From: Xanthobacteraceae bacterium
GTDB lineage: Bacteria; Pseudomonadota; Alphaproteobacteria; Rhizobiales; Xanthobacteraceae
Direction of reading: 5' to 3'
Assembly: GCA_024508855.1 (NCBI GenBank)
Contig: JANINJ010000082.1
Location: 62,001 to 126,000 of the forward strand
Length of the DNA: 64,000 nt
Positions within the stretch are counted from its first letter, which is position 1. Each line of letters begins with the position of its first letter. A program made the position numbers and the translations under genes. The notes beneath the pieces are model-generated. The model was not told the DNA's origin. It made no database searches and saw only the letters and a list, made by a program, of their open reading frames with translations. Shown one piece after another: positions 42,942-49,257 of this stretch.

Positions 42942-43607
42942 ATGACCCACACTTCATCGTCGTCGCTCACGACAACGTCAAAACCATCTTCGACCGATCC
43001 ATCGCGACGTGACTTCCTCTATGTCGCGACAGCCTGCGCCGGAGCGGTCGGCATCGCCGCGTCGCTCGTGCCGTTCATTTCCCAACTGGAGCCGGATCAG
43101 GCAACGCTTGCCGCAGGCGGGCCTGTCGACCTCGACCTCGCCAAGGTGCAACCCGGCCAGCAGGTCGTGGTGACCTGGCGCGGACGACCAATCTTCGTGA
43201 TCAACCGGCCAGCGAACGCGATGGCCACGCTTCAGGATCCGAAACTGCTGGCGCAACTGGCCGATCCCCAGTCGCAAGAACTGCAGCAACCGCCTTACGC
43301 GGAAAACTGGCACCGGTCGGTGAACCCGACCTATGGCGTGTTCGTCGGTATCTGCACCCATCTCGGCTGCATTCCGATGTACTATCCCGATCCAAATCCT
43401 TCGGAGCCGGTGTCGAACTGGTTGGGTGGCTATTTCTGTCCGTGCCACGGATCGAAATACGATCTCGCCGGCCGGGTGTTTCACGGCGTGCCGGCGCCGT
43501 ACAATCTGCCGGTGCCGCCGTATCGCTACGTCAATGCAACGACACTGCGGGTTGGAGAAAATCCGCCGGATTCTCAGTTCGAATTTTCAAGTATCCGACA
43601 GATCTAG
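42942..43607 (+). CDS. petA: Rieske iron-sulfur protein of a bc1-type complex (orphan)
   Basis: 221 residues. Ubiquinol-cytochrome c reductase Rieske subunit: a Tat signal-anchor ([20 protein letters not shown], 21-40) and the cluster-binding loops CTHLGC (138-143) and CPCHGS (166-171). Ligands are Cys138, His140, Cys166 and His169, with a disulfide Cys143-Cys168. TGGAG lies seven bases before the ATG. Cytochrome b and c1 genes, normally directly downstream, are absent here; the next gene is the convergent rnd, overlapping by four bases. Either petBC is elsewhere or this is a second Rieske copy. Confidence 0.9.
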
Positions 43608-44767
43608 GACTGAGGCTGGCGATCCCGATCCACCCGGACGACGCGGCCTTTCTCGATCGCCAAAGACAGTCGGCCATGCTTGAGGGCCAAGGCGGCGTCG
43701 CCAAATAGTTCGCGTCGCCAGCCGTGCAATGCACCAACGTCGGCGTTGTCATCGGCGGCGATCTGTTCGAGATCGTCGACAGTCGCGATGACTTTGCTTG
43801 CGACGGCGTAGCGTTCCGACGTCATCCGCAGCAGGACTTTCAGCAATTCGACAGTGGCGGAGCCGTTGGAGTTGCCGCGTGGCCTTTCGATCTTCGGTAA
43901 TGTTTGCGGATCGCGCGCTATACCGCGCTGCACGGCGGCGACGATATCGGTGCCCCATTTCGAACGGTCGAAGCCCTTGGGCAGCGAGCGCAGCCCGGCA
44001 AGCCGCTCCAGGCTCGTCGGCGCATGGGTCGCGATATCCCCGACCGCATCGTCCTTGAGGATGCGCGAGCGGGGCACGTCCCGGGTCTGGGCTTCCTTTT
44101 CGCGCCAGGCCGCGACCTCCATCAGCACTGCCAGTTCTTTCGGCTTGCGGACCCGCGATTTCAATCGCTCCCAGGCCCGTTCGGGATCGGCGTCATAGGT
44201 CCGGGGCGAGGTCAGGACTTCCATCTCCTCGCTGACCCAGTCGCTGCGCTTGCGTTTCTTCAGATCGGCGTCCAGCGCGGCAAAGACATCTCGCAGATGG
44301 GTGACGTCGGACACCGCGTAATGGACCTGCTCCTCGGTCAGCGGACGACGCGACCAATCAGTGAAGCGATGAGTCTTGTCGGGGCGATGACCGGTGACCC
44401 GCTCGACCAGTTGGTCGTAGGCAATCGAATCGCCGTAGCCCAGCACCATGGCCGCGACCTGGGTGTCGAATACCGGGTGCGGCACGATGCCGGCGCGGTG
44501 CCAAATGATCTCGATGTCCTGGCGGGCGGCGTGGAATACCTTGAGCACGTTCTCGTTGGCCATCAGGTCGAAAAATGGCTTCAGATCGATGCCGTCGGCG
44601 AGGGTGTCGATCACCACGGCCTCATCGGCGCTGGCCATCTGGACGACGCAGAGCAGCGGATAGTAGGTCGTCTCCCGCAGGAATTCCGTATCGACGGTGA
44701 TGACGGGGAAGCGGGCGAGGCGGGTACAGACGTCGGCGAGTTCGGCGGTCGTGGTAATCAGGTCCAT
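43604..44767 (-). CDS. rnd: Ribonuclease D
   Basis: A 3'-5' exonuclease that trims tRNA precursors. 387 residues: DEDDy domain first (VDTEFLRE carrying the first Asp/Glu pair, [11 protein letters not shown] with the third Asp, YAVSDVTHL with the catalytic Tyr and last Asp) followed by an HRDC domain ([30 protein letters not shown]). The chosen ATG at 44767 gives the family N-terminus [10 protein letters not shown]; the frame extends upstream but overlaps the aspS promoter. Divergent from aspS. Confidence 0.94.
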
Positions 44768-44990
44768 CAGCGCTGCATAATCCTTCTTTTGGCGCTTGTC
44801 GCCATGCTTTCGACGCGGGGCGGCGTTGATTTTACCCCGCTTTTGCGCCCCTGCGGCACCCCCGGCAACCCCGAAATCACCTGCATTCGGTTGCCGCGCT
44901 CCATTGGCTCGGGTAAACCCTGACCTCCTGCGGGGCTTGCGCCAGCAACCTCGCGATTTCCGCTCCCTCTGGCGCCTTTTAGAGAATTCC

Positions 44991-46892
44991 ATGCATCGTT
45001 ACCGGTCCCATACCTGCGGCGCGTTGCGCGAAGCAAACATCGACCAGACCGTTCGCTTGTCGGGCTGGTGCCACCGCATTCGCGACCATGGCGGGTTACT
45101 GTTCATCGATCTCCGCGACCATTACGGGCTGACGCAATGCGTCGCCGATCCGGATTCGCCGGCCTTCAAGGACGCGGAAAAGCTGCGCGCCGAATGGGTG
45201 GTTCGCATCGATGGCAAGGTGCGCCGCCGTCCCGAGGGGACCGACAATCCGGAACTGCCGACTGGCGCGGTCGAGCTGTTCATCACCGAAATCGAGGTGC
45301 TGGGGCCGGCCGGCGAACTACCTCTGCCGGTGTTCGGCGAGCAGGAATACCCTGAAGACATAAGGCTTAAGTACCGTTTCCTCGACCTTCGTCGTGACAA
45401 GCTTCACCAGAACATCATGACCCGCGGCGCGATCGTCGATTCGATGCGCAAGCGCATGAAGGAACAGGGCTTCTTCGAATTCCAGACGCCGATCCTGACG
45501 GCCTCGTCGCCGGAAGGCGCGCGCGACTTCCTGGTGCCCAGCCGTATTCATCCCGGCAAGTTCTACGCGCTGCCGCAAGCGCCGCAGCAATACAAGCAAC
45601 TGCTGATGATGTCGGGTTTCGATCGCTACTTCCAGATCGCGCCGTGCTTTCGCGACGAAGACCCGCGCGCCGATCGGCTGCCCGGTGAGTTCTATCAACT
45701 CGACGTTGAAATGAGCTTCGTGACGCAGGAAGACGTCTTCGAGGCGATGGAGCCGGTGATCACCGGCGTGTTCGAGGATTTCGCCAACAGCAAGCCGGTG
45801 ACGAAGAACTGGCCGCGTATTTCGTACAGCGCTTCCATCCGTGCTTTTGGGACGGACAAACCTGATCTTCGCAATCCGCTAATGGTCCATGATGTCACGG
45901 ATATATTTCGTGGTGCTGGTTTCGGGGTTTTTGCTAGGGCGATTGAGAAAGACGCCCGCACGCGTGTATGGGCGATTCCTGCGCCAAAGGGCGGCTCGCG
46001 GGCATTTTGCGATCGAATTGATGATTGGGCCAAATCAGAGGGACAGCCGGGTCTTGCGTACATTTTCTGGCGAGACGACGGAGAGGGGGCGGGGCCAGTA
46101 GCGAAGAATATTGGGCCAAACCTTACGGGAATGCTTAAGTCTCAACTAAACGGACGATGCGGCTCTCATGTTCGAGTTCCTCTTCCAATTAACGAACAAG
46201 AATCTCTTGGGCAACTTTTTGCCGAAAACTTTCCCGTTGAAGTCGCGAATTTGTATCGAAACTTGCGGCCCAATGGATTGATGGAAGGAGACGCCGTATT
46301 TTTTGTCATGGGCGTGCCAGACAAAATCTATAAGTTCGCGGGTCTTGCCCGCTCTAAGATTGGCGAGGAATTGAACTTGATCGATAAGGATCAGTTCGCC
46401 TTGGCGTGGATCGTCGACTTCCCGATGTACGAGTACAACGAGGAAGACAAGAAGGTCGACTTCTCGCACAACCCCTTCTCGATGCCGCAGGGCGGGCTAG
46501 ATGCGTTGACCACGCAGGATCCGCTGACCATCATGGCATTCCAGTACGACATTACCTGTAACGGCTACGAAATCGCGTCCGGCGGTATTCGAAACCACCG
46601 GCCGGAAGCCATGGTGAAGGCATTCGAGATCGCGGGCTACGGCGAGAAGGACGTGGTCGAGCGCTTCGGCGGCATGTACCGCGCATTCCAGTACGGCGCG
46701 CCGCCGCATGGCGGCATGGCGGCGGGAGTCGATCGTATCGTCATGCTCCTGTGCGGGACCACCAATCTGCGCGAGATTTCGCTGTTCCCGATGAATCAGC
46801 GTGCCGAAGACTTGCTGATGGGTGCACCATCCGACGTCACGCCCAAACAGTTGCGTGAATTGCACATCAGGCTCAATCTCCCGCAGGATTGA
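44991..46892 (+). CDS. aspS: Aspartyl-tRNA synthetase with atypical, enlarged GAD domain
   Basis: Charges tRNA-Asp (and possibly tRNA-Asn). 633 residues; relatives usually have about 590. The N-terminal OB fold ([30 protein letters not shown]) and class II core (RDEDPRADR at 221-229; motif 3 near GVDRIVMLL) are normal. Residues about 284-463, the GAD insertion domain, are coded by DNA of lower GC with different codons, and residues 388-429 have no counterpart in the usual enzyme. The conserved flanks (SRAFCDR, then EGDAVFF and [16 protein letters not shown]) and all class II motifs are intact, and the frame is open. So it is probably functional. Start at 44991; the frame runs further upstream but without conserved residues. 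Confidence 0.95.
45840..46380 (+). other. Low-GC mosaic segment inside aspS
   Basis: By hand count about 276 of 540 bases (51 percent) are G or C, falling to about 42-47 percent around 46141-46260, against about 60 percent just upstream. Codons such as CTA, TCT, CTT, GGA and AAT are frequent, unlike the neighbouring genes. The borders coincide with the GAD domain. No inverted repeats, transposase or stop codon, so it looks like homologous or domain-level recombination rather than an insertion element. The extra 126 bases lie at about 46152-46277. Confidence 0.8.
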
Positions 46893-46947: not shown

Positions 46948-49257
46948 GTGTCGTCGAGTTCAGAAGATCTTAAATCCGCGGCGCTGGCCTTTCATCGGTT
47001 GCCGCGGCCCGGCAAGCTTGAGATTCAATCGACCAAGCCGTTAGCCAACCAGCGCGATCTGGCACTGGCCTACACGCCTGGTGTTGCCGCCGCGTGCGAG
47101 GCGATCGCCGCCGATCCGGCACAGGCTGCATCGCTGACGATTCGCAGCAATCTCGTGGCTGTCGTCACCAACGGCACCGCCGTTCTCGGACTTGGCAATA
47201 TCGGACCGCTGGCGTCGAAGCCGGTGATGGAAGGCAAGGCAGTTCTGTTCAAGAAATTTGCCGGCATCGACGTGTTCGATATCGAAATCGCGGCGGACAC
47301 CGTCCAGCGCGTGGTCGACACGGTTGCTGCGCTGGAGCCGACGTTCGGCGGCATCAATCTCGAAGACATTCGTGGTCCGGAATGTTTCGAAATCGAAGCG
47401 CAGCTCAAGGAGCGTATGAAGATCCCGGTGTTCCATGACGATCAGCATGGCACCGCGATCATTGTCGCCGCGGCGATCACCAACGCGTTGCGGTTGAACG
47501 GCAAGAAACTCTCTGACGTCAAGATCGTGACGGCAGGTGCGGGCGCCGCAGCGCTGGCTTGCCTCAATCTGCTGGTATCGATGGGCGCGCAGCGCAAGAA
47601 CATCTGGGTCTGCGATCTCGACGGCGTCGTGCATGAAGGTCGCAACGTCGCGATGGATCGCTGGAAATCGATCTACGCGCAGAAGACCGACAAGCGTACG
47701 CTGGCCGAGGTGATCCCCGGTGCGGATATCTTCCTCGGTTTGTCCGGTCCCAAGGTGCTGACGCCGGAAATGGTCTCGCAAATGGGCCCGCAGCCGCTGG
47801 TGATGGCGCTCGCCAATCCGACGCCGGAAATCATGCCCGACGAGGTTCGGAAGGTGCGGCCGGATGCGATGATCTGCACCGGACGCTCGGACTTCCCGAA
47901 CCAAGTCAATAACGTTCTGTGTTTCCCGTTCATCTTCCGAGGTGCGCTCGACGTCGGCGCTACGGCGATCAACGAGGAGATGAAACGCGCGGCAGTCGAC
48001 GCCATCGCCCAATTGGCACGTGAGGCGCCGTCGGATGCGGCAGCGTTGGGATCTGAAGGCGGCGAGGTGCAAGGGTTCGGTGCTGGCTCGCTGATTCCGC
48101 CGGCATTCGACCCGCGTCTCATTCTGCGTATTGCACCGGCGGTCGCGCGGGCAGCGATGGAGTCCGGCGTTGCGACGCGCCCGATCGTCGATTTCGATCT
48201 CTATCAGGAAAAGCTCGAAGCATTCGCATTCCGCTCCGGTCTGGTGATGAAGCCGGTGTTCCTCAAGGCTCGCACTCAACCAGTTCGCGTCATCTATGCC
48301 GAAGGTGAGGATGAGCGCGTGCTGCGTGCGACGCAGGCGGTGCTGGAAGAAAAGTTGGCGCGGCCGATCCTGGTCGGGCGGCCGTCGGTCGTGGAGACAC
48401 GCATCAAGCGGCTCAGTCTGGTGATTCGGCCCGGCCACGATTTCGATCTCATCAATCCGGAAGACGATCCACGTTATCGCTCCTATGTGCAGAGCTACAT
48501 CGATGCCGCTGGCCGTTATGGTGTGACGCCGGAAGCGGCCCGCACTGTGGTGCGCACCAATGCCACTGTGATCGCGGCGCTGGCGGTCGCCCGCGGTGAA
48601 GCCGACGCCATGCTGTGCGGCGTCGAAGGTCGCTTCATGAGCCATCTACGTCACCTGCGCGAGATCATCGGCTTGCAGCCGGGTGCGATCGACTACGCGG
48701 CGCTGGTGCTGATGGTCACCAGCAAAGGCGCGTTCTTCCTCGCCGACACCCAGGTGCGGCCGAATCCCAACGCCGAGGAATTGGCGGATCTCGCGGCCTG
48801 TGCCGCGCAGCACGTCCAGAGGTTCGGGTTGAAGCCGAAGATCGCATTCGTCTCGCATTCGGATTTCGGCAGTTACGATACCGAGTCTTCGCGCAAGATG
48901 CGCCGTGCCACCGCGATCCTCGCCGAGAAGCGGCCGGACCTCGAAGCCGACGGCGAAATGCAAGGCGGCACCGCGCTGTCGCAGATCAAGCGCGACTACG
49001 TGTTGCCGCAGTCGCGTCTCGAGGGTGTCGCCAACGTCCTCATCATGCCGAGCCTCGATGCGGCCCACGTCGCCTATCAGATGGTCAAGGAACTGGCAGA
49101 CGGACTTCCGGTTGGGCCGATCCTGATCGGTCCGGCGCGCCCGGCGCACATCCTGACACGATCGGTCACTTCGCGTGGCATCCTCAACATGACGGCGGTC
49201 GCGGCGGTTGAAGCACAGGAGCGGGCGGGACGTCAGCAGCCGACACTGTTCGGGTAG
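46948..49257 (+). CDS. maeB: NADP-dependent malic enzyme with phosphotransacetylase-like domain
   Basis: 769 residues. The malic enzyme part (about 1-430) shows [67 protein letters not shown] and the nucleotide loop [13 protein letters not shown]. The C-terminal part (about 440-769) is the PTA/PTB fold seen in MaeB of proteobacteria; there it is regulatory (acetyl-CoA sensing) rather than catalytic. Decarboxylates malate to pyruvate, producing NADPH. Start: GTG at 46948 after GGGGGAG; an alternative TTG lies upstream. Confidence 0.95.

Follow-up and report, generated by a model that had tools for sequence, protein, structure and literature searches.

Mosaic alleles generated by homologous recombination have been described in bacteria, and among the closest cases are penA in Neisseria and introgression in Campylobacter, in which foreign blocks are likewise reported inside a native gene. 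The aspS mosaic described here differs from both because it affects an essential tRNA synthetase in which one structural domain has been exchanged, and because the long allele concerned is common to several genera with no known selective agent. Exchange of the GAD domain of aspartyl-tRNA synthetase (AspRS) was not described in the literature that we searched, which consisted of titles and abstract openings with subscription journals mostly outside.

AspRS of the bacterial type (NF001750/TIGR00459; solved structures 4WJ3 chain M, 1EFW, and 1C0A) combines an OB-fold with a class II core, into which an insertion domain is set. The enzyme studied here has the same parts in the same place, and differs in that its GAD segment belongs to another allele than its core. 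A review links the absence of this domain from the archaeal Asn-transamidosome to a slower release of Asn-tRNA (PMC9499178, which cites Suzuki et al. 2015).

RESULTS

The aspS gene and its locus. The window, by which we mean the whole stretch of 64,000 nucleotides analyzed from a Xanthobacteraceae genome, carries the single aspS copy of that genome (positions 44991..46892, plus strand), encoding an aspartate--tRNA ligase of 633 amino acids followed by a stop codon. The product scores 803.8 bits against NF001750 (cut-off, 443) and 568.4 bits against TIGR00459 (cut-off, 373.85), and contains an N-terminal OB-fold (PF01336, 65.6 bits) and the class II catalytic domain (PF00152, 360.5 bits). Its GAD region matches the insertion region of the solved AspRS sequences, whose matches to the window end before the insert described below. 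The gene is flanked upstream by an ORF that we take to be RNase D-like (43604..44992, minus strand) and downstream by one that is presumably malic-enzyme-like (47227..49257, plus strand), each of which has a match near aspS in several relatives. Both rnd-like and maeB-like matches accompany aspS in the window, in genomes G1094 and G1067, and in the native loci L032, L034, L044, and L050; no rnd or maeB match was found near aspS in L237 to L240, whose flanks are too short to tell. The window contains no Rfam match at gathering scores.

A foreign GAD segment between native flanks. Identity and third-position profiles, together with the AU test given below, delimit a foreign GAD-domain segment at 45816..46355 (plus strand; residues about 276/278 to 455; GC3, 0.47) between a native N-terminal part, comprising the OB-fold and the first part of the catalytic core (44991..45815, plus strand; GC3, 0.79), and a native C-terminal part (46356..46892, plus strand; GC3, 0.80). 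The left edge lies at about codon 277, and the right edge is fuzzy, at about codons 454 to 467. In 60-codon windows along aspS, GC3 is 0.72 to 0.85 for windows starting at codons 1 to 241, 0.38 to 0.55 for those starting at 261 to 401, 0.68 at 421, and 0.77 to 0.88 thereafter. The original prediction had put the GC content of the GAD region at about 51%, with less than 50% in its middle, and a sliding-window count agrees with this: 45840-46380 has 51.2% GC, and the 200-base windows 46100-46299 and 46200-46399 have 46 to 47%. It had also pointed to rare codons, and those that are rare in the long ORFs of the genome indeed make up 13.3% of the GAD segment versus 2.2% of the rest of aspS, the average over long ORFs being 5.0%.

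This composition is exceptional among AspRS genes and within the genome. The difference in GC3 between GAD segment and flanks is -0.33, corresponding to a z score of -6.9 relative to 181 other AspRS sequences (a set of 204 reduced to 182 by removal of four copies of the window's gene, duplicates, and sequences shorter than 450 amino acids). Among 158 ORFs of at least 500 amino acids, taken from about 1.2 Mb of this genome, aspS has the deepest internal GC3 trough (-0.32). Two further ORFs approach this depth (-0.31 and -0.25); both troughs lie upstream of recognized domains and are therefore probably due to ORF read-through.

Both ends of the protein are close to those of congeners, as predicted. 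Residues 1-270 are 94 to 95% identical to those of the genus mates L008 and L009, and residues 476-633 are 94 to 98% identical to those of L009 and L008. In a codon-by-codon comparison made separately for each segment, the flanking residues 1-271 and 467-633 show an amino acid identity of 84 to 100% and a third-position identity of 0.54 to 0.88 to the genus mates L008, L009, and L011. The corresponding values for residues 272-386 and 432-450 in comparison with ten relatives are 46 to 73% and 0.12 to 0.48. The GAD segment reaches only 12.2 bits (E = 0.22) against PF02938, below the cut-off of 23.4, and the long-GAD carrier L220 gives no match to this model; the native, insert-free L032, taken as a control, scores 24.5, above the cut-off. 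The long GAD has therefore diverged from the curated Pfam domain, yet it can still be aligned at the usual place with 24 native GAD segments, to which the window's segment is 58 to 65% identical.

Conflict between GAD and core trees. Separate trees for the GAD segment and the core, each with 49 hand-picked rows, formally disagree. When the insert columns are left out of the GAD tree, the six long carriers form a single clade (support, 100/97), and forcing the window together with four genus mates lowers the likelihood by 53.7 lnL and is rejected (p-AU = 0.0025). The core tree places the window within its genus (85/84, not starred); here a constraint that unites the six carriers lowers the likelihood by 332.5 lnL and is likewise rejected (p-AU = 1.5e-5). 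The six carriers were chosen by their insert and not from these trees, an earlier GAD tree with the window, L220, and L221 being already known at that time. The placement of G1067 (L221), the carrier with the shortest insert, is unstable: it lies inside the carrier clade in one GAD tree (95/92) and outside it in the 49-row tree. The former tree omitted L152, L155, L141, L138, and L116, which, or whose nearest neighbors, had stood on long branches earlier. GAD and core trees are thus in conflict, and aspS is a mosaic allele, probably a recombinant one. Composition, third-position divergence, and tree topology support the predicted mosaic, with a foreign GAD segment and two native flanks.

The 42-residue insert. 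Within the foreign segment, codons 387-428 (46149..46274, plus strand) encode 42 extra residues between the IGP...QL and EGDA..FF blocks. The length and place given in the original prediction hold, and its coordinates (46152-46277) are one codon off. It had also stated that these residues lack a counterpart in the usual enzyme; this applies to the genus mates of the window, none of which carries the insert (0 of 7), but six other family genomes and the metagenomic contig L349 have homologous inserts. Matches of the genus mates break at about residues 386-390 and 428-429, and their genome coordinates at this point adjoin or overlap by no more than 12 bases; aspS of the genus mate G006 is split over two contigs, and the two pieces that flank the insert site adjoin. 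With a pN of 0.33 versus a pS of 0.85, the insert is constrained and under purifying selection. Two structure prediction runs gave poor models, with mean pLDDT values of 46.8 and 49.1, both below 50. No second copy of the insert was found in the window or in a further 1.14 Mb, which together make up about a quarter of the genome.

We considered a palindromic mobile element of the Rickettsia type as the origin of the window's insert and rejected it, as the inverted repeats present are all short or imperfect, the insert is not bounded by any of them, and the fold z score is -1.0.

Distribution of the long-GAD allele. A search with the insert region (E <= 1e-6) identified 7 carriers among 391 family genomes, distributed over 5 of 47 genera; one carrier was found among the 8 genomes of the window's own genus and one among 9 in g547, the genus of G1094. 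The insert is 42 residues long in the window, G1094, G1411, G1425, and G1463, 37 in G1491, and 28 in G1067. All seven carriers share the motif RAFG or RAYG, and six share IHDV or VHDV. When the family was searched with the GAD segment, the matches listed included G1094, which is 73% identical over the whole segment including the insert, and G1067, which is 58% identical. The best noncarrier, L113, is 69% identical in GAD.

The insert-bearing GAD is found in ordinary-looking cores of g547, g558, and g35, and a shorter form is found in g11. Core identity to ordinary relatives over residues 1-270 is 0.97 to 0.98 for G1463 and 0.97 for G1094; g558 (G1411) had no genus mate in the set. In the six long carriers, GC3 of residues 277-386 is 0.49 to 0.59 versus 0.77 to 0.91 in the flanks, and GC3 within the insert is 0.38 to 0.73. 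G1067, with its insert of 28 residues and a GC3 of 0.96, has a GC3 of 0.94 to 1.00 in every part of aspS. The window, L220, L238, and L239 have their left edge at codon 277/278; in L237 and L240 it is shifted by about ten codons toward the start of the gene. The predicted recombination within one domain of a tRNA synthetase is supported, but it is not a one-off, as the allele occurs in four other genera and in L349.

GAD and core also disagree within g35: L238 and L239 are 0.92 identical in residues 277-386 and 0.86 in residues 1-270, and the values for L239 and L240 are 0.75 and 0.93, respectively. This genus is probably Bradyrhizobium, because in the core tree the core of G1425 is nearest to that of Bradyrhizobium sp. 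STM 3843. Identity at fourfold sites is 0.18 to 0.36 among long GADs and 0.55 to 0.83 among their cores, a gap that is partly an effect of composition, and suggests that the long-GAD alleles may have parted long ago.

Searches for a donor. No genome with a native, nonmosaic long-GAD aspS, and thus no donor, was found. Among the matches listed in protein searches of 385 genomes of the class, 299 of the phylum, 397 of the order, and 149 of family f81, none had this insert; G065, G1031, G1178, and G1135 span the insert place among these matches, but their inserts lie in another loop. Searches of plasmid and phage records yielded no match at or above 60%, and a viral scan with the window sequence alone gave no confirmed carrier.

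A viral profile scan with a seven-row alignment retrieved L350, in which the insert is absent, and L349, in which it is present. L349 is an IMG/VR metagenomic contig whose first 2 kb contain a near-complete aspS with a 42-residue insert and the same kind of composition (GC3, 0.74 in the N part, 0.51 in GAD, and 0.72 in the C part). Its core is nearest to those of G009 and G1054, with an identity of 0.88 in the N part. Positions 2011-6334 of L349, following the long-GAD aspS, contain a CI-like repressor, about 0.6 kb beyond aspS, and other phage-like ORFs, with 4 of 7 tested ORFs matching PHROGs families, and may represent a provirus. No maeB-like match was found in the 6.5 kb of the contig. 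Since this aspS is near complete and has a core with 0.88 identity to those of family members, it is most likely the host flank of a provirus. As L349 comes from another source, it supports the view that the mosaic is real.

The tRNA-Asn context. A non-discriminating AspRS, which charges tRNA-Asn, would be expected in a genome that has GatCAB but no AsnRS. No match over the cut-off for asnS (AsnRS) was found in the genome. A gatB gene was found in 25 of the 26 genomes searched, the exception being the window's assembly, in which neither of two models found it and of which 99 stretches covering 1.14 of the 5.16 Mb were examined further. Contig C74 of this assembly ends at a repeat of roughly 110 bp, about 5 kb before the place that gatB occupies in G005; contigs C8 and C17 have this repeat at their starts. 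An assembly gap with a missing contig is therefore the more likely reason for the absence of gatB, and loss of gatB is the less likely cause.

DISCUSSION

In our judgment the GAD domain has probably been replaced repeatedly by homologous recombination with an old, lower-GC long-GAD allele. The middle domain of a native AspRS would have been exchanged for that of a divergent aspS allele in which 37 to 42 extra residues separate the QL block from GDAxFF. The long-GAD allele is selectively constrained, has a lower GC3, and is probably old; it presumably stems from a lower-GC source. Several genera of one family would have received it in their aspS genes on more than one occasion, and the replacements would start at, or slightly before, the GAD boundary. 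Repeated replacement of this kind accounts for the tree conflict as well as for the composition and the edges of the segment. The enzyme would still charge tRNA normally, and the long GAD might tune the handling of tRNA or GatCAB rather than change amino acid or tRNA identity. This is a guess, made because the absence of GAD is tied to slower Asn-tRNA release and because no AsnRS exceeds the cut-off in this genome. The original prediction had offered altered tRNA choice, a partner-binding site, or insensitivity to an inhibitor as hypotheses for the insert.

An old trans-species polymorphism is an unlikely alternative that nonetheless deserves consideration. Long- and short-GAD alleles would then predate the split of the genera and be kept by balancing or frequency-dependent selection, recombination would re-pair GAD alleles with cores, and the low GC3 would stem not from a foreign source but from the rarity of the allele, which would undergo less of the recombination that raises GC. 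Such a history fits alleles that are rare (7 of 391 genomes), scattered, diverged, and under purifying selection, as well as the lack of this insert among the insert-spanning matches listed for the class (385 genomes), the phylum (299), and the order (397). However, a GC3 near 0.5 in hosts with a core GC3 of 0.72 to 0.91 is easier to obtain by import from a lower-GC source, and the class, order, and family results refer to the matches listed, so that carriers outside the family may have escaped.

Deposition of the GAD module into host genes from phages or mobile elements that carry it is very improbable. L349 does encode a CI-like repressor about 0.6 kb away from its long-GAD aspS, and 4 of 7 ORFs tested there match PHROGs families, but the near-completeness of this aspS and its family-like core (0.88) mark it as most likely host flank, and no match of 60% or more was obtained from plasmid or phage records. 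Rapid evolution in situ after a small insertion in the window's lineage, with no recombination, is less credible still: although no close donor was found among the matches listed, other genera share both the insert and the GAD-specific residues, the AU tests stand against it, and the change at the segment edges is abrupt. The original prediction had named an assembly error as one finding that would undo it, and a chimera or contamination, conceivable in an assembly of 107 contigs that breaks at repeats, can practically be dismissed, because the same kind of in-frame mosaic occurs in other genomes, including large contigs of 7.8 Mb (G1425) and 3.3 Mb (G1094), and in the metagenomic contig L349.

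With repeated replacement as the preferred reading, a single structural domain of an essential tRNA synthetase moves between genera, and the remainder of the enzyme keeps its native sequence. Whole-gene aspS trees can consequently mix two histories, and the long-GAD mosaics are natural chimeras for probing the role of the bacterial GAD domain. A wider scheme, which we regard as a long shot, is a recurrent, order-wide replacement of GAD alleles in which at least two kinds of rare, lower-GC3 variants pass between genera and shield AspRS from a GAD binder such as a phage, a toxin, or an antibiotic, with rare forms being favored. If this were true, AspRS would be an enzyme with a swappable shield domain.

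Other variation in the GAD region. A second kind of GAD insert, defined by its position between the PGLGYI and GPxAKN blocks, where 47 to 60 residues are found, is present in other AspRS of the order (L003, L223, L222, L169, and L083). Like the insert of the window, these are sporadic and lie in the GAD region, but they precede GPxAKN, whereas the window's insert follows the QL block. The second-kind inserts of L003 and L223, which belong to different genera, are 51% identical, and GC3 of the loop is reduced in L003, L083, and L169. In addition, L023 (G009) and L005 (G021) have their best GAD neighbors in other families (identity, 0.77 each), with best core identities of 0.89 and 0.86, respectively, a pattern that may hint at further GAD exchanges. 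Finally, in the distant pair L008 and L123, GAD identity (0.77) exceeds N-core identity (0.66), suggesting that GAD and core may have separate histories there, or may simply evolve at different rates.
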